NCBI GenBank assembly: GCA_903842345.1
Contig: CAIMLR010000005.1
Span: forward strand, 62,001-126,000
Reading direction: 5' to 3'
DNA from: an uncultured Myxococcales bacterium
GTDB lineage: Bacteria > Myxococcota_A > UBA9042
DNA length: 64,000 nt
This document shows, in pieces, positions 14,177 to 33,940 of the stretch. Numbering within the stretch: the first letter of the stretch is position 1; each line of letters starts with the position of its first letter. Both the position numbers and the translations under genes were made by a program. The notes under the pieces were generated by a model, which was not told the origin of the DNA, did not search any database, and was given only the letters and a program-made list of their open reading frames with translations.

Positions 14177-15310
14177 TCAGAACCACATGTAGCGCAAGGT
14201 CAAGCTGCCGAGGAAGCCGTTGCTGGCGGTGCCGACGGAATCCGTGTCGCGCTGGAAGGTGAAGGAGCTCAGCAACTTCCAGTTCTTGTTGAACTTGTAC
14301 GCGGCTTTGAGCGTCGTGGCTGCAAGGCCACCGCCGTCGTCGACGTAGCGGCCGATGGCTTCCGTCAGCGTAATTTTCCAGTCGTGGGCGTGCCACGCGC
14401 CGCCAAATTGGGTGTTGAAGCGAAAAGCGGAAAGCGGAACGCCTTCTCCGTATTCGATGCTCCCCGCGCCGCTGCGGGGCCCGACGACCGCCGTGCCGCG
14501 GGACGCGATCGAAAAAACCCCGACTTCATTGGGATCTTTGCTGTAGACGTAGTAAGTGGCGCCGAGAATCGCGTCCCAATTCTCGTACATCGTCTCCGTC
14601 GCCGACAGCGCGAACGCGCCCTGCTCCAGCGAATCCTCTTGCGCCCGCAGCAGCGCCGTCAGGACCTTGCATCCCTTGCTCGTCGCACCGGCGCATGCCT
14701 TGTCCAGCGTCGTCTTGTCGACGACGGTCTTCCCCACCGTCACATCGGCGATCTTCTGCAGCGTCCCGTAATGATTCCACGTCGCGGTCGCCGTCACGCT
14801 TGTCTGAAAGTCGCTGTCGTCGTCATCCGTGTCGTAGCTCGCCATCAACATCAGGCCGCCGGAGGTCGACTCCGCATGCAACTGCGCTTCGTGGTCCTTG
14901 GCGCCCGCGGGCGGCAACTTGTCGTCAAAATTGATTGTCGTCTGGCTCAGCTGCATCGATTTCGGGGAAAGAGTCGCGGAGCCCATGAACAGCCAGTGAT
15001 CGCCCAACGAGTAGCTGGGGCCCAAGCCAAGCGCGTAGATGTTGCCGGCTTTCACGACGCTGGGATCGCCGGACAAGGTGGGACGCGTGATGCCGAAACT
15101 GCCGTCGAGCGACCAGTCGTCCGTGATGTCCCAGGAGCCGAGGACGCTGCCGCTGTTGGAACCCGTCGCGGGGCTGTCCGCAGTCGAGGGCGTGCGGCTG
15201 ACCTGAACGGTCGTGGCGACGTCGTGCGCCCACGCCGCAGACGCAGACACGCACGCGAGAGCGCAGAACCCGAGCACGCGAAGAACGGTGCTGTGTGTCG
15301 CCAATCGCAT
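14177..15310 (-). CDS. Outer-membrane β-barrel protein
   Basis: The 377-residue protein has a cleavable signal peptide (about residues 1-28, ending SASAAWA) and alternating strand-like sequence throughout. It ends LGSLTLRYMWF with a terminal aromatic residue, the usual BAM recognition signature of β-barrels. It starts 6 bases after the stop codon of the giant Cys-rich lipoprotein gene, and its ribosome site TAGGG overlaps that stop codon, so translation is probably coupled. It could serve as a porin or as an export or anchoring partner for the lipoprotein. No named family was recognised. Confidence 0.85.
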   Translation of the reverse strand: MRLATHSTVLRVLGFCALACVSASAAWAHDVATTVQVSRTPSTADSPATGSNSGSVLGSWDITDDWSLDGSFGITRPTLSGDPSVVKAGNIYALGLGPSYSLGDHWLFMGSATLSPKSMQLSQTTINFDDKLPPAGAKDHEAQLHAESTSGGLMLMASYDTDDDDSDFQTSVTATATWNHYGTLQKIADVTVGKTVVDKTTLDKACAGATSKGCKVLTALLRAQEDSLEQGAFALSATETMYENWDAILGATYYVYSKDPNEVGVFSIASRGTAVVGPRSGAGSIEYGEGVPLSAFRFNTQFGGAWHAHDWKITLTEAIGRYVDDGGGLAATTLKAAYKFNKNWKLLSSFTFQRDTDSVGTASNGFLGSLTLRYMWF

Positions 15311-15316
15311 GATGCC

Positions 15317-18300
15317 CTACTGTGGTGCGCAGCCGCAGTTGCTGCAGGTCAGGCGGACGTTGTCCAAGCTGATGCCGGAGGTCGTCGCCTGACCGCTGAC
15401 CGTGATGACCTTGTAGCCAAAGCGCACTTGCAGCGACTGGCTGGCCGGGCTCAGCGACACCTGGCCGACGTTCAGGACGCTCCAGCCGCTCGATACGACG
15501 TTTGTGAGGTCGAGCAAGGTCGCCCACGTGCCGCCCGCGTTCAGCGAGTACTCGATGCGCATCGCCTGCGATGCCGCTTCCAGGTTGACGAAGGCGTCCG
15601 CGGCGATCTGGATGGTCATCGACGTCGGCGACTTGATCTGGGCGAAGTCGTACAGCGGGCTCGTCACGTACACGTAGCCATTGGTCGCCGTCTTCGCGAG
15701 GTTGCCGCCAATCGCGGTGCCGAGCAGCCAGCCGCCCGCCGTGCCGCTCCCGTCCGCCGTCGGATCCGAGTAGCCATACGTCTCGCCATTGGACGGCTTG
15801 GCCGCGCCGGCGATCCACTGGCCGTCGACGTCCCAACCGCGCGCGATGCCGACGCTGAAGTCCTCGTAGTCCAGGTAGCCGGACGTCGCGGTCGTGGCGC
15901 ACGCGCCTGTCGCCGGATCGCAGTTCGTGTACGAGCAAGCGTCCCCGTCCTCGCAGATGACCGAGCCGCCAAATCCGCACTTGGCCGCCAAGCAGTATTC
16001 GTCGTGCGTGCAGAGCGAGCCGTCGTCGCATGCTTGGTAGTCGAGCACCGCGGAGTCATGCAGGCAGCCGCCGTTGGCGTCACAGCTGTCCAACGTGCAC
16101 GAATTGGAGTCGTCGCACTTGTTGGCGCCGACGCACGCGCCTGACGCGACGTTGCAGGTGTCGCCGACCGTGCACGGGTCGCCGTCGTCGCACGTGCCGG
16201 CCACGCCGGTGTGCTTGCAGGCTGTGCCGGTGCAGCTGTCGTTCGTGCAACTGTTGGCGTCGTTGCACAGGGAGTCGAGCGCCACGTGTTTGCAGCCGGT
16301 GCTCGCGTCGCAGGAATCCGCGGTGCACGCGACGAGGTCATCGCACGGGTCAGGCATGAACGAGCAGCCGAGGTACTTGTCGCACTGGTCGATCGTGCAC
16401 AGGAGACCATCGTTGCAGGGCACCGGCGGGTGCAGGCAGTCGTTGACCAGCGAGCAGATGTCCGTTGTGCACACCGTGCCGTCGTTGCAGTTCGCGTCCA
16501 CGGCGTCGTGCTGGCAGCCTCCCGCGACGCAGAGGTCGTCGGTGCAGAGCAGCGTGTCAGCGCAGTCCATCGGCGTGCCGGGCTGGCAAGTGCCGCCGGC
16601 GCACGTGTCGCTGAGGGTGCACGCGTTGCCGTCGTTGCAGGCAAAGCTGTTGGGCGTAAAGACGCAGCCGGTCGCGGAATTGCACGAGTCGCTGGTGCAC
16701 AGTTCAGAGTCGGTGCAGTTGCGCTGGAGGCCGCCGCAGACGCCGAGCGTGCACGTGTCGTTGACCGTACATTGGTCGCTGTCCACGCACGCGGTGCCGT
16801 TCGTGACCGGCACGTTGGCACAGCCGGTCGCCGGACTGCAGGAGTCGTTGGTGCAGCTGTTCTTGTCCTCGCACAAGCCTTGTGGTTGCGCGTGCTGGCA
16901 GCCAAGCACTGCGTCGCAGGTGTCCGTCGTGCACGCGTTGCTGTCGTCGCAGTTGACGGTGGTCTTGGGCGTGCAGGCGCCCGCAACGCACGACTCGCCG
17001 CTTGAGCACGGGTCGGCGTCGACGCACGCGAGGCCTTCATTGGCCGGCGCGTAGACGCAGCCCTTTGTCGGATCGCAGCTGTCGTTGGTGCACACGTTCT
17101 TGTCATCGCACACGACCGCGCTGCCCGCGCAACTGCCGGCGGAACAGTGGTCGGTCGCCGTGCACGCGTTGCCGTCCGTGCAAGTCGTGCCATCCGCGAC
17201 GTTGCTGTGGCTGCAGGTGCCGCCGCCGCACGTGTCCGTCGTGCACGGATTGCTGTCGTTGCAGGAATTGCCAAGGCCGCTGCCGCAAATGCCCGCGGTG
17301 CAGACTTCGCCGACCGTGCAGGCGTTGCCGTCGTCGCATGCCGCGCCGCCGTTGGTGGCGATGTGCGTGCAGCCGGTGGCCGGGTTGCACGAGTCCGTGG
17401 TGCAGATGCTGTTGTCATCGCACCCCGCTCCAAGGCCCATGCACGCGCCGCTGAAGCACGCGTCCCCGCTGGTGCACAGGTTGCCGTCGCTGCACGCCGA
17501 CTTGTCGGCCACGATGCTGTGCGCGCACCCGCCGGCTTTGCTGCACGAGTCGGTCGTGCAGTCGTTGGCGTCATTGCAGTTCGTCGTCGCGCCGCTGCCG
17601 CAGCTGCCCGACGCGCAAAGTTCGCCGGTCGTGCACTTGTCGCCGTCGTCGCACGCGCCGCCGTCGTTGCCGTTGGTGAACGTGCAGCCGCTCACGGGGT
17701 CGCACGCGTCGATCGTGCACGCGTTGCCGTCGGTGCAGACCGCGGAGGTGCCCTTGCATGCGGCGGCGATGCACTTGTCCGCCGTCGTGCACTTGTTGCC
17801 GTCGTCACACGCCGAGCCGTCCGTCGCGCTCACGTGCGTGCACCCGCTGGCGCTCGCGCAACCGTCGACCGTGCACGGGTTGTTGTCGCTGCAATCCGGG
17901 CTGCCGCTGCCGATGCAGCTCGTGCCGCTGCACTGGTCGATCGCGGTGCACGGGTCGCCGTCGTTGCAGCTTGAGCCCGTCGGGAGCGCGGTGTGGACGC
18001 AGCCAGTGACTGGGTCGCAGGTGTCGGCGCTGCACGCCTTGCCGTCGTCGCAGTTGGTGGTGGTGCCTTTGCAGCTCGTGCCGGCGCACTTCTCGCCGGT
18101 GGTGCACGGATTGCCATCGTCGCACGCGCTGCCGGTGGTCACGGTGGTGTGCACGCAGCCGGCCGCCGCGCTGCACGAATCCGTGGTGCACGGGTTGCCG
18201 TCGTCGCACGCCACCGCGCTGCCAACGCAGCTGCCGTTGGCGCACGCGTCCGCGAAGGTGCACGCCGAGCCGTCATTGCACGCCGTGCCGTCGCCCGATC

Positions 18301-21300
18301 CCGTCGCAACGCAGCCGGTCGCGGGGTCGCAACTGTCCGCGGTGCAGCTGTTGCCGTCGTTGCAGACCTTGGCGGTGCCCAGGCAGCCGCTGGCGTTGCA
18401 GGTGTCGCCGGTCGTGCACGCGTTGCCGTCGTCGCACGCGCCGGTGATGACGCTGTGGACGCAGGCGCCCGCGCTGCAGGAATCCGCGGTGCAGGCGATG
18501 CCGTCGTTGCAGTTGTTCACGCCCGCGCCGACGCAGACGCCGCCGGTGCACGTGTCCCCGGTCGTGCACGCGTTGCCGTCCGTGCAGTTGCCGGAGACGT
18601 TTGTGTGCTGGCAGCCGCTGGCCGGATTGCAGAAGTCGCTCGTGCAAATCTGGCTGTCGTCGCAGTTGACGCCAACGCCGGGCGCGCATTTGCCGCCGCT
18701 GCAGGTGTCGCCGCTGGTGCAGGCGTTGCCGTCGGTGCAGGTCACGACGTTGGCCAAGTGCACGCAGCCCACGCCGTCCGCGCAGCTGTCATCGGTGCAC
18801 AGGTTGCCGTCGTCGCAATTGGACGCCACGCCGTGGCACGTGCCGTGCAAGCACGCGTCGCTGACGCTGCATGCCTGGCCGTCGTCGCACGCAAGGCCGT
18901 CGTCGTTCGCGTGCGTGCAGCCGCTCGCTGGGGCGCACGCGTCCTTGGTGCACGGCTGGCTGTCATCGCAGCCCAGCGCGCCGGCAATCTGGCACTTGCC
19001 ACCGGAACACGCGTCGCCGGTCGTGCACGCGTTGCCGTCCGAGCACGTCGCCGCGTTGGCCAACGTCACGCAGCCCTGTTTGGCGTCGCAGGTGTCATCG
19101 GTGCACGGATTGCTGTCGTCACAATGGAGCGCGACGCCCTTGGCGCACACGCCATTTTGGCACACGTCGCTCTGCGTGCAGACGTCGCCGTCGTCGCAAT
19201 TGGCAACCTGCGCGGTGTGCGTGCAGCCGCCCTTGGTGTCGCAGCCGTCGGCGGTGCAGGGATTGCCGTCGTCACACGCGATGGTCGTGCCGCTGCAAGC
19301 GCCCAACACGCAGGCATCGGAAGCCGTGCACGCGTTGCCGTCCGTGCAGCTGGTCCCGTTGAGCTGCGCGTGGCCACAGCCGTTGCTCGGGCTGCAGCTG
19401 TCCGTCGTGCAGGGATTGGCGTCGTCGCAGACCTTGGTGCCTTTGGCCTGGCATTTGCCGCTCGCGCACGTGTCCTGCGTGGTGCAAACGTTGCCGTCGT
19501 CGCAGGTCACGGCGTTGGGCAAGTGCACGCAACCGGTCGTGTCGCTGCAGCTGTCGTCGGTGCACACGTTGTCGTCGTCGCACGCGGGGATGATGCCGTG
19601 GCAAGCGCTGTGCAGGCACGTGTCCTGGACGCTGCACTTCTGGCCGTCGTCGCACGCGATGCCGTCGTTGTCGGCGTGCTTGCAGCCGGTCGCGACGTCG
19701 CACGCGTCCTTGTTGCACGCGTTGCCGTCGTCGCAGTTGATCGGCGTGCCGGGCGTGCATTTCTCCGCCGCGCAAACGTCGCCGGTCGTGCACGCGTTAC
19801 CGTCGTCGCACGCGCCAGTTTGCGCCGTGTGCAAGCAGCCCAGCTGTTTGTCGCATTTGTCCAGCGTGCACACGTTGGCGTCGTCGCAGTTGACCGCCGT
19901 CCCGGCCGCGCAGATGCCGCCCGCGCACTGGTCGTTGGCCGTGCACGCGTCCCCGTCTGCGCACGCGCCGGTCGTCGGCGTGTGGACGCAGCCCTTGGCT
20001 TTGTCGCACGAGTCCGCAGTGCACGGATTGCCGTCCTCGCAGGCGATCGCCGTGCCCACGCACGCGGCGCCCACGCACGTGTCACTGGCCGTACACGCGT
20101 CGCCGTCCGTGCACGCACCGGCGATGTTGCTGGAAACGCAGCCCGTCGCCACGTTGCAGCTGTCCGCGGTGCACGGCTTGCCGTCGTCGCAGTTTTTGAC
20201 GCTGCCGCCGATGCACGCGCTGCCCTTGCAGCCGTCGCCGTCGGTGCAGGCGTTGCCGTCGTTGCAGGTCGCGGCGTTGGGCAGGTGCACGCAGCCGCCG
20301 CTCGCGTCCGAGCAGGAATCGTCCGTGCACGGGTTGCCGTCCGTGCAGCCTGGCACGACGCCTTCGCACTTGGCGTGCAAGCACGCGTCCTTGACGCTGC
20401 AGGTCTGGCCGTCGTCGCACGGCGCGCCGTCCGCGTCGGTGTAGACGCAGCCCTGCTGCAGATCGCAACTGTCCGTCGTGCAGGCGTTCTTGTCATCGCA
20501 GACGAGCGCCTTGCCCGCAACACACTTGCCGCCGGCGCACGCTTCATCCGTCGTGCACGCGTTGCCGTCGTCGCACGTGCCGGCGATGTTGCTGTGCTGG
20601 CAGCCCAGCGCCGGGTCGCAGCTGTCGATTGTGCACGCGTTGCCGTCGTCGCAGCCCGGCTCGCTGCCCGGTTGGCAGACGCCGCTCGCGCACGCGTCGC
20701 CCGCCGTGCACGGGTTGTTGTCCGAGCACGGGGCGGTACTGCTGACGTGCTGGCAGCCCGCATTCGCGCCCTTCTTCACGCACGTGTCGTCGGTGCACGG
20801 GTTGTTGTCGTCGCAATCCACCTTCGCGCCGATGCAGGTGCCGACGATGCAGGAATCACCCGCCGTACACGCGTCCCCGTCCGAACAGAAGCCGGCGGCG
20901 ATGGGATGCTGGCATCCGTTGGCGAGGTCGCACAGGTCTTGCGTGCACGCATTGCCGTCGTTGCAGTCCAGCACGTTGCCGCCCAGGCACTTGCCACCGG
21001 CGCACGCGTCGCCGTCCGTGCACGCGTTGCCGTCGTCGCAGGTCTGGAGGTTGTTGCCGTGCGTGCACCCCACGCCGTCCTTGCACGAATCGTCCGTGCA
21101 CAGGTTGCCATCGTCGCAGTCGGGCGCAACGCCCTTGCACGCGCCGCCCGCGCAGACGTCCTCGGTCGTGCACTTCTTGCCGTCGCTGCACGCCGCGCCG
21201 TCGGCGTTCTCGTGCCCGCAGCCGACGGTCAAATCGCAGGCGTCCTTGGTGCACGGGTTGCCGTCGTCGCAGTCCAGAGCGGCGTTCGGCGTGCATTTGC

Positions 21301-21832
21301 CGTTGGTGCAGCTGTCGCCAACTGTGCAGGCGTTGCCGTCGTCGCACACGATGTCGCTCTCGGGCGTCAGCGTGCAGGTGCCGGAGACACACAGGTTGGC
21401 GTTGCACGGATCGCCGGTCGCCGGACAATCCTGGTCGCCTGCGCAACCCGCGTCGATTGGCCCCGCATCCGTTGCCGCATCCGCGCCTTCCGCGTCGGTT
21501 CCCGAATCCTTGGCGGCGTCCAGCGCGTCTTTGGCGTCGGCGTTTGCGATGTCCTGCGTCGGCGATGCGTCCGCGCCGGCGTCGACGTCCTGCGCATCCT
21601 GGCCGAGCACGTCCGATGTCAGCGTGTCGGAGTCTGTCGCCCCCACATCGGCGTCGGAACCGGCGACGAGGCCATCCTGGTCCACGTCAGCAGGTTCCAC
21701 GTCGCTCGCCGCTCCGCCAGCGGTCGCGCCGCAACTGGCCAGAACAAGCGCAAACGCCACAAGCAGCGCGTGACCCAAAGGCAGACCTGACCGTGGACAC
21801 CCGCTGGGTGCCAAATCGCCGCAAACTCGCAT
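15317..21832 (-). CDS. Giant Cys-rich repeat lipoprotein (2171 aa)
   Basis: ATG 21832 follows AGGGGAG. The protein starts with a lipoprotein signal (ALVLASCGAT) and then an Asp/Ala-rich linker of about 110 residues. Next come 71 consecutive half-repeats of 23-29 residues, each built around C-x-D-x-x-x-C-T. Two kinds alternate: type A (C-D-D-G-N-A-C-T-x-G-D-x-C-x-x-G-x-C) and type B (C-D-D-G-N-P-C-T-x-D-S-C-D-x-x-x-G-C-x-H). The last 190 or so residues form a β-rich domain that resembles a jelly-roll or MAM-like fold (from YEDFSVGIARGWDVDGQW) with a final C-x-x-C-x-C. Repeats of this kind occur in large myxobacterial surface proteins. Regular disulfides and Ca2+ binding by the Asp-rich loops are inferences. 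It is co-oriented with the β-barrel gene 6 bases downstream. No known function. Confidence 0.93.
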   Translation of the reverse strand: MRVCGDLAPSGCPRSGLPLGHALLVAFALVLASCGATAGGAASDVEPADVDQDGLVAGSDADVGATDSDTLTSDVLGQDAQDVDAGADASPTQDIANADAKDALDAAKDSGTDAEGADAATDAGPIDAGCAGDQDCPATGDPCNANLCVSGTCTLTPESDIVCDDGNACTVGDSCTNGKCTPNAALDCDDGNPCTKDACDLTVGCGHENADGAACSDGKKCTTEDVCAGGACKGVAPDCDDGNLCTDDSCKDGVGCTHGNNLQTCDDGNACTDGDACAGGKCLGGNVLDCNDGNACTQDLCDLANGCQHPIAAGFCSDGDACTAGDSCIVGTCIGAKVDCDDNNPCTDDTCVKKGANAGCQHVSSTAPCSDNNPCTAGDACASGVCQPGSEPGCDDGNACTIDSCDPALGCQHSNIAGTCDDGNACTTDEACAGGKCVAGKALVCDDKNACTTDSCDLQQGCVYTDADGAPCDDGQTCSVKDACLHAKCEGVVPGCTDGNPCTDDSCSDASGGCVHLPNAATCNDGNACTDGDGCKGSACIGGSVKNCDDGKPCTADSCNVATGCVSSNIAGACTDGDACTASDTCVGAACVGTAIACEDGNPCTADSCDKAKGCVHTPTTGACADGDACTANDQCAGGICAAGTAVNCDDANVCTLDKCDKQLGCLHTAQTGACDDGNACTTGDVCAAEKCTPGTPINCDDGNACNKDACDVATGCKHADNDGIACDDGQKCSVQDTCLHSACHGIIPACDDDNVCTDDSCSDTTGCVHLPNAVTCDDGNVCTTQDTCASGKCQAKGTKVCDDANPCTTDSCSPSNGCGHAQLNGTSCTDGNACTASDACVLGACSGTTIACDDGNPCTADGCDTKGGCTHTAQVANCDDGDVCTQSDVCQNGVCAKGVALHCDDSNPCTDDTCDAKQGCVTLANAATCSDGNACTTGDACSGGKCQIAGALGCDDSQPCTKDACAPASGCTHANDDGLACDDGQACSVSDACLHGTCHGVASNCDDGNLCTDDSCADGVGCVHLANVVTCTDGNACTSGDTCSGGKCAPGVGVNCDDSQICTSDFCNPASGCQHTNVSGNCTDGNACTTGDTCTGGVCVGAGVNNCNDGIACTADSCSAGACVHSVITGACDDGNACTTGDTCNASGCLGTAKVCNDGNSCTADSCDPATGCVATGSGDGTACNDGSACTFADACANGSCVGSAVACDDGNPCTTDSCSAAAGCVHTTVTTGSACDDGNPCTTGEKCAGTSCKGTTTNCDDGKACSADTCDPVTGCVHTALPTGSSCNDGDPCTAIDQCSGTSCIGSGSPDCSDNNPCTVDGCASASGCTHVSATDGSACDDGNKCTTADKCIAAACKGTSAVCTDGNACTIDACDPVSGCTFTNGNDGGACDDGDKCTTGELCASGSCGSGATTNCNDANDCTTDSCSKAGGCAHSIVADKSACSDGNLCTSGDACFSGACMGLGAGCDDNSICTTDSCNPATGCTHIATNGGAACDDGNACTVGEVCTAGICGSGLGNSCNDSNPCTTDTCGGGTCSHSNVADGTTCTDGNACTATDHCSAGSCAGSAVVCDDKNVCTNDSCDPTKGCVYAPANEGLACVDADPCSSGESCVAGACTPKTTVNCDDSNACTTDTCDAVLGCQHAQPQGLCEDKNSCTNDSCSPATGCANVPVTNGTACVDSDQCTVNDTCTLGVCGGLQRNCTDSELCTSDSCNSATGCVFTPNSFACNDGNACTLSDTCAGGTCQPGTPMDCADTLLCTDDLCVAGGCQHDAVDANCNDGTVCTTDICSLVNDCLHPPVPCNDGLLCTIDQCDKYLGCSFMPDPCDDLVACTADSCDASTGCKHVALDSLCNDANSCTNDSCTGTACKHTGVAGTCDDGDPCTVGDTCNVASGACVGANKCDDSNSCTLDSCDANGGCLHDSAVLDYQACDDGSLCTHDEYCLAAKCGFGGSVICEDGDACSYTNCDPATGACATTATSGYLDYEDFSVGIARGWDVDGQWIAGAAKPSNGETYGYSDPTADGSGTAGGWLLGTAIGGNLAKTATNGYVYVTSPLYDFAQIKSPTSMTIQIAADAFVNLEAASQAMRIEYSLNAGGTWATLLDLTNVVSSGWSVLNVGQVSLSPASQSLQVRFGYKVITVSGQATTSGISLDNVRLTCSNCGCAPQ
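15899..21346 (-). repeat. 71 tandem Cys-rich half-repeats (coding)
   Basis: By hand segmentation, 71 units of about 69-87 bp run without interruption inside the giant lipoprotein gene. Types A and B alternate strictly for units 1-58. After that order is lost: units 58-59 and 63-67 are consecutive type B. The C-terminal third is therefore less regular than the N-terminal part. Confidence 0.9.
18740..21190 (-). repeat. Higher-order 765-bp repeat inside the giant gene
   Basis: Every tenth half-repeat belongs to the same subtype. Units 13, 23 and 33 share the pattern C-D-D-G-Q-x-C-S-V-x-D-x-C-L-H, and each is followed by a unit C-x-D-x-N-x-C-T-D-D-S-C ending H-L-x-N-x-x-T. Their first Cys codons lie at 20419, 19654 and 18889, exactly 765 bp (255 codons) apart. 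The related but more diverged unit 3 is at 21190, 771 bp before. This points to duplication of a 10-unit block. Confidence 0.85.
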
Positions 21833-31540: not shown

Positions 31541-33790
31541 CTAGTAATGGCGTTCCAGCACGTACCAGCCAAACGCCCGGAGCATCAGCTTGGGCAGCGT
31601 ATCCTCCACGAGCGGTTCCAGCTTCTGCCATGCGGCTTCCACCATCTCGCGCGCCTGCGCCTCGCAAGCGTCGATGGCGTGGCACGCTTCCAGCTTCTCG
31701 ATGACAGCGTCGATCGTCGCGCGATCCTGCGGCTTGGACTGAATCGTCGCCCACAGCCACGCGCGATCCTCATGGGACAGCCGCCCCATCGCCTTGGCCA
31801 CCGGCAGCGTCACTTTGCCGTGCGCAATGTCCTCACCGCGGGACTTCAGGTCGCCCTTGAAGCCGCGCAGGTTGAGCACGTCGTCGATGATCTGGAACGC
31901 CAAGCCGATCGATTCAAAGAAGTTGCCGACGCCGTCGATCTGCGCTTCCGAACCGTTGCCGGCGATCGCGCCCATGCGCGCGAGCGTCGCCGCCGGAACT
32001 GCCGTTTTCAGACGGTGGACCGCCAGCACGCGCCGCTCCAGGAACGGCCCGTCGCCAGAAGTGACCGCCGCCGGCATCGCGTCGTCGATGCCCGCAATAT
32101 CCAGCGCCTGCCCCGCGTGCCCCGCACGCAGCGTTTCAAAGTACAGATCGTAGATGCGCAGTTTGTCGCGATCGGACATGCGATCCGAGTGCAGCAGCTT
32201 CTGGCCGAGGAAGTACGCCGCCGTGCCCGCGTTGATCGCGATCGCTTCGCCGTAGATCAAGTGCGCCGTCGGACCGCCGCGGCGAACCATCGACTTGTCC
32301 TGGACGTCGTCCACGATGAGCGAACCCACGTGCATCAGCTCCGGCATCGCCAGCCATTGCACGAACTGCCGCGAGTCGCCGCCCACCACGTCGCAGCAAG
32401 CCAGCGCCGCGTAGCTCCGCCAGGACTTGCCACCGCGGTCGGTGATTTCGCGGATCGGCTTGATGATGTTGTCGGCAAACTGCTGGATGTCGACGCCGTC
32501 GATGGCCTGCGGCCGATCCGGTCCGGCGATCAGCGCGAGCGCCTCCGTCTCATTGGGCTGCATCGGCATCACGTTGTTGATCGACTTGCGGACCTGCTTG
32601 CCCACCGCGCCAAAGAACTGGTCGAGGTTGTCGATGTCGTTCTGACCGCTGCGTTCCAGGTAACCGAGGCCGCTGACCGATTTGCCGCCGATCTCCGCGT
32701 GGACCGTGCAGCGCCCTTCCCAGAAGCCGGGCTTGGAAATGAGCGTGATGAATTCCTGATCGTCAAAATCAGCGACAAGGTCGCACTTCAGGCCGATCGA
32801 CGGCACTTCCAGCAGCCACGCCGTCGGATATTCGGCGAAGGTCCGCGTGCTGCACCAGTTGCCCGCGGGCGTGAGCCTGGTGTCGGCGTACTCGCCGCGC
32901 GTGCCGTCGGGCCACACGACGATGGTGCGCGCGTCCAGGAACTGGTGCGTGTCTTCTTGCACCAACGCGTACGCAGAAATCTCCGTGTTGTCGTCCAGTT
33001 GCACACCAAGCCACGTCCAACCGATATCCTCGCCTTCCTTCTTTTTCTCGGTCATCTTGCCGTGGCGGCCGAACTCGTGGTCGTACCAGCCCTGGGCGGC
33101 CTTCACCGCCTCATCGCCACCGGGAAGTCGAATTGTTCCCGTGACATCGCAGCGCGGCATGAAGTAGTAGAACATGTCTTCGCCGTGCGCGCCGCGGACC
33201 ACGCCGTCCACGCCGTGGCGCATCGGCGCTTTCTTGGGCGCAAACACCAGCGACGCGCCGTGCTGGCCGTCGTGCTGGCGCAGCTCCAGCGTGTAGCTGC
33301 CGTCGTCGTTCTTGCGCAGCTGATTGCCGTCAAAATCCAGCTCCAGCTTGTCCCAGGACACGAACGGGTCGCGCACGAACGGGATATCCGGATGGGGCAC
33401 GCGGCCGCGCTCCAGCACTTCGCGCATCGCGCGCTGCAGGCGGCTGTCGGACGAGCCTTCGCCGCGCTCCATCTTCTTGAGGCCCAACTGCGCGGCTTTC
33501 TTGTCGACGAGCGACTCTGAGACGTAGAGCTGCCGCGTCGGCTCGCTCAACGCCCAGGTGCAACTGTAGGCGTACTGCGGCTGTTTGGTCAGCTCGTCGT
33601 AGGCGTTGACAATTGTAAAGAAGGACGCGAACAGGGAGAGTTTGCGACCCGCGACCGTTTCCACGTGGCAATTCAGGTACCACCACTCCGTCGTCGACGA
33701 GGTATGCGGAAGGTCGTGAATTGCGAGGTCAATCGGGCCAGCGTGCGGCCAATCGGCTGGAAAACGGGCTTCAGCCGGGGTGGTGGACAT
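31541..33790 (-). CDS. CrtC/AttH-like domain fused to isoprenyl diphosphate synthase
   Basis: A single 749-residue frame with GGAG 6 bases before ATG 33790 contains two domains. Residues about 15-385 match the lipocalin-like CrtC/AttH family (carotenoid 1,2-hydratase and terpene-modifying relatives): EWWYLNCHVE (35-44), WYDHEFGRHG (235-244), WTWLGVQLDD (258-267), YPTAWLLEVPSIGL (321-334), GLGYLERSG. Residues about 435-749 are a trans-isoprenyl diphosphate synthase, with first Asp motif DDVQD (494-498) followed by RRG, GKVTLPVAKA (658-667), and second motif DDVLN (636-640). The second motif has Asn at its last position. The synthase would make a C15-C20 or longer prenyl diphosphate. The fused domain may hydrate or cyclise a prenyl product. 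There is no signal peptide and no other carotenoid gene nearby. Confidence 0.9.
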   Translation of the reverse strand: MSTTPAEARFPADWPHAGPIDLAIHDLPHTSSTTEWWYLNCHVETVAGRKLSLFASFFTIVNAYDELTKQPQYAYSCTWALSEPTRQLYVSESLVDKKAAQLGLKKMERGEGSSDSRLQRAMREVLERGRVPHPDIPFVRDPFVSWDKLELDFDGNQLRKNDDGSYTLELRQHDGQHGASLVFAPKKAPMRHGVDGVVRGAHGEDMFYYFMPRCDVTGTIRLPGGDEAVKAAQGWYDHEFGRHGKMTEKKKEGEDIGWTWLGVQLDDNTEISAYALVQEDTHQFLDARTIVVWPDGTRGEYADTRLTPAGNWCSTRTFAEYPTAWLLEVPSIGLKCDLVADFDDQEFITLISKPGFWEGRCTVHAEIGGKSVSGLGYLERSGQNDIDNLDQFFGAVGKQVRKSINNVMPMQPNETEALALIAGPDRPQAIDGVDIQQFADNIIKPIREITDRGGKSWRSYAALACCDVVGGDSRQFVQWLAMPELMHVGSLIVDDVQDKSMVRRGGPTAHLIYGEAIAINAGTAAYFLGQKLLHSDRMSDRDKLRIYDLYFETLRAGHAGQALDIAGIDDAMPAAVTSGDGPFLERRVLAVHRLKTAVPAATLARMGAIAGNGSEAQIDGVGNFFESIGLAFQIIDDVLNLRGFKGDLKSRGEDIAHGKVTLPVAKAMGRLSHEDRAWLWATIQSKPQDRATIDAVIEKLEACHAIDACEAQAREMVEAAWQKLEPLVEDTLPKLMLRAFGWYVLERHY

Positions 33791-33940
33791 CGGGGACTCC
33801 AAGGGCAAACGGGGGGCAAAGTGCGGCGAACCGGGAAGTTCGCAGGGCACTCCGTGTGCCACAGCCGGGCACTTACGTCCACACTGCGGATGTCACGAGC
33901 TTGTGAAGATGCGGCGTCGCGCCCCGCGGAACCGCCGGTC

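Follow-up and report, generated by a model that had tools for sequence, protein, structure and literature searches.

The window that we analysed, a stretch of 64,000 nucleotides from contig CAIMLR010000005.1 of an uncultured Myxococcales bacterium, carries a gene (here called the array gene) for a predicted giant lipoprotein, probably lipid-anchored at the cell surface, in which 71 four-cysteine units of the Dicty_CTDC repeat family stand in tandem. The best explanation of the data as a whole, and one that we consider rather probable, is a lipid-anchored surface lipoprotein with a disulfide-laddered stalk that displays a head. Within this explanation the architecture is well supported and the connectivity of the cysteines moderately so, and adhesion would be assigned by analogy.

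Anatomy of the array gene and its repeat family

The minus-strand open frame that holds the array extends from 21955 to 15317, and its likely start is the ATG at 21832; GGGGAG lies a few nucleotides 5' of this codon, and the frames in two related MAGs, CAITYF010000026.1 (locus L112) and CAIYWC010000137.1 (L050), open at the equivalent Met region. The parts of the gene are collected in Table 1. Segments resembling the 5-Cys starter that precedes unit 1 are also present in other arrays. We took two plus-strand frames that cross the array (17085-20444 and 17993-21790) to be antisense to a GC-rich repeat.

Table 1. Coordinates in the window of the array gene, its parts and the gene downstream
Feature	Coordinates	Strand	Details and basis
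Whole array gene	15317..21832	minus	ATG 21832, stop codon 15317-15319
Signal peptide with lipobox LAS-C, then Gly	21731..21832	minus	Sequence and regex; Cys codon 21733-21731
Asp/Ala-rich acidic linker, zero Cys	21446..21730	minus	Translation
5-Cys starter, spacing C5C6C4C4C, precedes array unit 1	21374..21445	minus	Cys spacing; 5 Cys from lipobox to unit 1
58 strictly alternating A/B units (29 doublets)	16898..21346	minus	Cys spacing
Remaining 13 units, reading B A B A B B B B B A B A B	15899..16873	minus	Cys spacing; order common to L112, L050 and L141-L143
C-terminal head of 193 aa with C-x2-C-x-C at its end; jelly-roll beta sandwich by prediction	15320..15898	minus	AlphaFold2 and Foldseek
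Next gene downstream, 377 aa, signal peptide, C-terminal RYMWF	14177..15310	minus	6 nt past the array-gene stop

We typed the units by the spacing between their second and third cysteines, which is five residues in A and four in B; the full spacings are C-x5-C-x5-C-x4-C (C5C5C4C) for A and C-x5-C-x4-C-x5-C (C5C4C5C) for B, and the difference between the types comes down to a one-residue shift of C3. Typed in this way, units 1-58 read (AB)29 with no exception, and units 59-71 are irregular. Perfect alternation is a long way from a random order, being 2 of the C(58,29) possible orders of 29 A and 29 B units. The full spacing fits 54 of the 58, the exceptions being four B units with last loops of 8, 6, 4 and 4 residues. 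Such an alternation is the expected outcome of doublet duplication. All four cysteines of each unit are invariant across the 29 doublets (8 invariant Cys columns per doublet). D3 is conserved at 99-100%, and the Asp two residues before C3 at 91-94%; the two conserved Asp positions leave room for a putative metal site in the units, such as the Ca2+ loop suggested in the initial annotation.

The initial annotation had described an error-free A/B alternation of 58 units at 15899-21346. Units 1-58 do alternate without error, but this interval holds 71 four-cysteine units in total, of which the last 13 are irregular, and strict alternation is confined to 16898-21346. Its four conserved cysteines per unit and its A+B doublet were both borne out. 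Absent from it were the lipobox, the acidic linker, the 5-Cys starter, the C-terminal head and the at least 67 other array ORFs of the genome.

A profile search placed the array protein in Pfam Dicty_CTDC (PF00526; 494.9 bits, E 1.8e-152, 38 stretches). Searched singly, B units scored 27.7-36.1 bits and five of five lay above the gathering cut-off of 27, and A units scored 12.1-18.8 bits with none of five reaching it. Because the B units pass the Pfam cut-off and the A units fail it, we read B, from its sequence, as the known Dicty_CTDC repeat and A as a diverged partner related to it. Up to E 1, the sole other Pfam match to the protein was a weak Reelin sub-repeat, and an NCBIfam search with the whole protein gave no match. 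EGF-type modules were considered and rejected, as the Pfam search of the array gave no EGF family; there was no TNFR family match either, and the units did not fit the six-Cys EGF profile. A PDB profile search with the array returned no solved relative (best row fibrillin, E 2.3, not significant), a viral contig collection contained no viral relatives of the array, and BFVD gave no fold match at E < 0.001. The initial annotation had remarked that known EGF-type domains do not make the fold obvious, and this stands insofar as there is neither an EGF family match nor a clear match to a solved structure; what went unrecognised is that the B half is a known Pfam repeat. A literature search, conducted without most subscription journals, found no paper on bacterial CTDC arrays. 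The Dicty_CTDC family is already known, and we did not find the A/B doublet, its scale in the class, the lipoprotein-stalk architecture or the proposed ladder described.

Conservation and abundance of the arrays

The 71-unit order, irregular end included, is identical in three genomes, that of the window and those of L112 and L050. Units of the window are best matched by the unit at the same position in 65 of 71 cases in L112 and in 69 of 71 in L050. When the window was compared with L112 and L050, dN/dS was 0.20-0.26 for the 58 units vs 0.33-0.43 for the head, and Cys columns were kept in 294/296 and 295/295 cases. On these sequence comparisons, we take the array to be old and held by selection. 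That the array is a product of chance or of assembly was ruled out by the 71-unit order shared by L112 and L050, which are separately assembled MAGs. The first 17 doublets show a weak period of five doublets, with a mean identity of 0.55 at offset 5 vs 0.46-0.50 at offsets 1-4, which hints at a trace of older block duplication.

Neighbours of the array gene are shared with L112 and L050. Apart from the gene directly downstream they are of ordinary kinds, with a LonB-like protease, an alpha/beta hydrolase, a TrkA-type channel and an RND efflux set. The protein encoded at 14177-15310, directly downstream, has no Pfam match and may, as a guess, be a putative outer-membrane beta barrel. It is kept in two further genomes from the same genus (L050/L141 and L142; 69-72% identical), and in a third (L112/L143) no counterpart was found at that place. 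Elsewhere in the window, at 31541-33862 on the minus strand, CrtC/lipocalin domains and a polyprenyl synthetase domain lie in one frame, an unusual fusion.

A first look at the genome of the window gave 1,878 CTDC candidates, and all 150 of those that were scored match. The stretches retrieved from it yielded at least 68 array ORFs, which together hold 1,496 units; the spans from first to last unit in these 68 make up 3.0% of the genome, and their open frames 4.6%. CTDC matches were present in 36 of the 36 relatives' genomes searched and in 117 of the 189 genomes of a phylum sample, and the median number of candidates fell from 1,758.5 in the 18 genomes of the genome's own family to 338 in the 18 from the rest of the class and to 30 in the 81 other matching genomes. 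A repeat query among relatives gave at least 526 stretches, at least 449 of them confirmed, from which 78 loci were kept as a selection and not a census. Among the matches listed, almost every named relative is an uncultured MAG with Myxococcales, Deltaproteobacteria or Proteobacteria in its title. One locus, L120 (CAMDBH010000068.1), comes from a MAG titled Klebsiella pneumoniae; its CTDC array is typical of Myxococcota loci, and the record is probably mislabelled.

Counting as adjacent those units separated by a gap of up to 14 residues, we found 570 AB, 530 BA, 70 BB and 11 AA pairs in the 68 array ORFs of the genome itself, so that 1,100 of 1,181 pairs alternate; the corresponding counts for 103 array ORFs of related MAGs were 1,386, 1,348, 40 and 34, with 2,734 of 2,808 alternating. 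The longest alternating runs, 67 units in the genome itself and 88 in a relative, both exceed the 58 of the array gene. Alternation is the usual order in this genome and is not special to the array gene. Among 20 loci that represent the phylum and further families of the class, nearly B-only arrays occur, and AA pairs number 1 of 631 in the class and 2 of 98 in the phylum; the longest array ORF outside the genome's own family has 144 units, almost all B. B may follow B, and A after A is nearly absent. The A/B doublet therefore seems to have been derived from a chain that was basically of the B type.

The nearly B-only arrays of other families of the class include L169-L174 and L177, with 48 to 144 units, and several of them contain units that lack both C1 and C4. 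A third unit type with the spacing C5C5C6C and no Asp at position 3 (e.g. CTASDQCHTAGTCDAATGTC) was seen in L058, L070 and L011, where in some arrays it alternates with A units.

Predicted fold and disulfide connectivity of the stalk

For structure prediction with AlphaFold2 we used 109 in-register, non-overlapping ABABAB segments out of 161, namely the 9 of the window and, of the 152 that relatives supplied, the first 100. The model of three doublets (mean pLDDT 96.5, pTM 0.70) is all beta with one hairpin per B unit, and the stalk is thus confidently predicted to be a beta-hairpin rod, in keeping with the rigid rod of doublets that had been anticipated in the initial annotation. When this model was searched against the PDB with Foldseek, there was no match at E 0.001; ranks 1-4 were all Entamoeba Gal/GalNAc lectin heavy chain, with E between 5.5e-3 and 5.6e-2 and a probability of 0.38 to 0.69, and the rows below them, TNFR family chains among them, had E above 2. 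VIA-align of the stalk model against 45 chains gave no Z of 2 or more. No solved structure of Dicty_CTDC repeats was found by profile, and a contact-based modelling study reports, in the part available, a Dicty_CTDC model score of 0.57 with a weak closest PDB entry (PMC8078820).

The occasional loss of a cysteine allowed us to consider how the four are paired. C1 is missing from 34 of 3,408 B-type cores, and C4 is gone as well in 32 of the 34, in 16 loci, compared with 25 of the 3,374 others; the loss counts here and below were drawn from related loci and are not phylogenetically independent, and Fisher values computed from them overstate their independence. The co-loss in 32 of 34 cores therefore suggests a C1-C4 bond within the unit, a reading that we reached from the loss patterns independently of the description of the Entamoeba lectin. 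The second and third cysteines behave differently. Typing of 6,548 units gave 6,509 full, 27 C2-less and 12 C3-less units, and none without both. A C3-less unit directly follows a C2-less one in 4 of the 14 cases in which the C2-less unit has an adjacent successor (L080, L197 and twice in L174, thus three loci), and the opposite order of neighbours was seen 0 times. An extra Cys lies no more than 18 residues downstream of 20 of the 27 C2-less units, vs 1,194 of 6,497 full ones.

The parity of the cysteines bears on the same question. Of 101 complete ORFs, 82 have an even number of Cys after the lipobox Cys (44 of 55 from the genome itself and 38 of 46 from relatives) and 19 an odd one, these being related rows; in the array gene it is 292. 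Between the lipobox and the first unit, 101 of 121 ORFs have an odd number, the commonest being 5, in 48 ORFs. When both flanks of the array are considered, the 101 complete ORFs, which are related and not independent, comprise 72 odd/odd, 27 mixed and 2 even/even cases, and the 20 uninterrupted arrays 15, 5 and 0, respectively. Odd flanks fit a through-going ladder because a ladder takes one Cys from each flank; if the units were closed, a Cys would stay unpaired at either end of the stalk.

A pairing of C2 with C3 inside the unit gave way to one between units because there is no co-loss of the two and the flanks are odd. The simplest reading of the losses is a bond between C2 of one unit and C3 of the next, C2(i)-C3(i+1); together with the parity it suggests, with moderate support, that each repeat is disulfide-linked to its neighbour in a continuous ladder. 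It is very probable that all cysteines of the array are oxidised, and the self-contained four-cysteine unit or doublet of the initial annotation is probably wrong, the loss patterns and parity pointing to C1-C4 within the unit and to C2 and C3 in bonds with its neighbours.

Two other pairings were weighed against this ladder. Nested C1-C4 and C2-C3 bonds could close every unit into a bead, with the odd flank Cys left free or joining two chains end to end; the co-loss of C1 and C4 fits such beads too, and the extra Cys after C2-less units, as well as the four C2-less/C3-less neighbours, might reflect the re-pairing of single cysteines. We nevertheless regard closed units as unlikely, since C2 and C3 are never lost together whereas C1 and C4 are so 32 times, and since re-pairing leaves unexplained why odd/odd flanks outnumber even/even ones as they do. 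A ladder of the reverse direction, C3(i)-C2(i+1), seems to us somewhat less likely still. It has been described for the Entamoeba Gal/GalNAc lectin heavy chain, the top Foldseek match with all four of its entries, in which, according to the available part of the report (PMC12948311), pseudo-domains of about 20-35 residues have four Cys and antiparallel strands, with C1-C4 bonded inside, C2 bonded to the previous pseudo-domain and C3 to the next. The order of neighbouring losses speaks for the opposite direction, and most of the C2-less units inspected are directly followed by another 5-Cys starter. We accordingly carry forward the ladder C2(i)-C3(i+1) as the candidate pairing.

Proposed surface display and comparison with known systems

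The lipobox regex matched 55 of 60 complete array ORFs of the genome; among the controls it matched 51 of 678 ORFs without an array and, of 60 shuffled heads, 10. The five array ORFs that it missed look lipoprotein-like by eye. Judged by regex and by eye, the array protein has the predicted signal peptide and lipobox (LAS-C) of a bacterial lipoprotein. At its other end, the AlphaFold2 model of the head is weak (pLDDT 60.9 from four sequences, best at residues 70-180), and the Foldseek rows obtained with this weak model are mostly jelly rolls, among them meprin MAM, gingipain K3 cleaved adhesin, neuropilin MAM and CBM22/CBM6 (E from 2.8e-5). The head as modelled would therefore resemble MAM/cleaved-adhesin jelly rolls, and an adhesin function is suggested by analogy of fold alone. 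Pfam and NCBIfam searches gave no match for the head, and as a query against the genome contigs it found no relative. The 76 non-repeat segments of the genome's array ORFs carry varied Pfam domains, e.g. RCC1, LamG_3, LTD, NHL, FG-GAP, InhA-like MAM and fibrinogen-C.

Enzymes that might oxidise such a stalk are encoded in the genome, which has a single VKOR match, sharing its frame with a DsbA-type domain, and at least 18 Thioredoxin_4 matches; there was no match for DsbB. Across the 117 of 189 genomes with a CTDC match, to which this comparison was confined, the median number of Thioredoxin_4 matches per genome was at least 18 in the genome's own family vs 7 in the 81 CTDC genomes of the other phylum members, and among the remaining genomes of the class the rank correlation did not reach significance (rho 0.39, p 0.11, n 18). 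The surplus in the family is supportive of stalk oxidation but is not proof of it. At L160 (G000:C7:15839-17140 and beyond), one frame combines VKOR with a DsbA-type thioredoxin domain, and its C-terminal part looks by eye like a formylglycine-generating enzyme. Three to four clustered Thioredoxin_4 matches form poly-DsbA-like frames on contigs C36, C48 and C3 of the window's genome (G000).

We propose that the parts follow one another as a lipid anchor, an acidic spacer, the 5-Cys starter, 71 Dicty_CTDC-type hairpin units and a MAM/cleaved-adhesin-like head. The protein would be exported and lipidated, and its stalk oxidised in the periplasm by the genome-encoded VKOR/DsbA-type enzymes; each unit would close internally through C1-C4, and C2(i)-C3(i+1) would staple neighbours into one continuous disulfide ladder. 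A stalk laddered in this manner would be stiff, protease-resistant and of fixed length, and would keep the head away from the cell. By analogy, the most likely role is that of an outer-membrane stalk displaying an adhesin head.

The arrays might instead themselves build a cell coat, with no display of a head, as coat or matrix proteins like EcmA and EcmB of Dictyostelium. The repeat family is indeed common to dictyostelid matrix proteins (PMC4931340, in the part available), and arrays are very abundant in the genome; set against this, the lipobox of nearly all complete array ORFs and their varied C-terminal domains favour anchored display, and we hold a coat without heads to be unlikely, a lipid-anchored coat being still compatible with these features. 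It is very improbable, in our estimation, that the array is the outcome of neutral expansion, in which doublets multiplied by slippage and the alternation is purely historical. The weak five-doublet periodicity would fit such a history, but the same unit number and order in three genomes, the positional best matches, the low dN/dS and the retention of nearly all Cys argue against it. Anchored display on a stalk is thus the role that we retain.

More tentatively, and with less confidence than we place in the stalk itself, a whole class of Myxococcota may display surface proteins on disulfide-stapled rods, with dozens of lipoproteins per genome, gene-specific lengths, differing heads and an enlarged DsbA/VKOR apparatus, and the dictyostelid matrix proteins, perhaps also the Entamoeba lectin stalk, may share the principle of the rod through bacteria-amoeba transfer or common descent. 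The bacterial arrays supply enough sequences for a confident model and for a reading of connectivity from paired losses. If correct, the proposal would explain the construction of very long, stiff stalks on a bacterial surface, and would provide a testable bond pattern for the matrix proteins of slime moulds.

Several known systems resemble parts of this protein. The head may share its fold, as predicted in a weak model, with MAM, the gingipain cleaved adhesin and InhA-like MAM, and differs in having no family match of its own. EGF- and TNFR-type modules are likewise small, disulfide-rich and arranged in rods, and the array matches neither family. With the Entamoeba lectin the proposed ladder would share the principle of C1-C4 inside the unit and C2 and C3 to its neighbours, but the direction between units appears to be opposite; Foldseek gave E 5.5e-3 with a probability of 0.69, VIA-align a Z < 2, and there was no PDB-sequence profile match, and we have not filed the array as a member of the lectin type. 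CREMP, the avian eggshell membrane protein, contains long a-b alternations of a pair of related four-Cys modules and, according to the part of the source available (PMC3068167), loses its structure upon reduction; its spacing, C4C5C8C, is not found in the array units, which are C5C4/5C5/4C. The closest parallel in family is to the Dictyostelium proteins EcmA, EcmB, PdiA, PsiA, PsiF and PsiN, which like the array carry tandem Cys-rich units in exported proteins (PMC4931340, available in part). Here, half of the first 58 units are of the A type and lie under the Pfam cut-off, and the carriers are predicted bacterial lipoproteins with at least 68 array ORFs in one genome, compared with the 6-15 proteins per genome tabulated for four amoebae with the domain (Table 4 of the same source).
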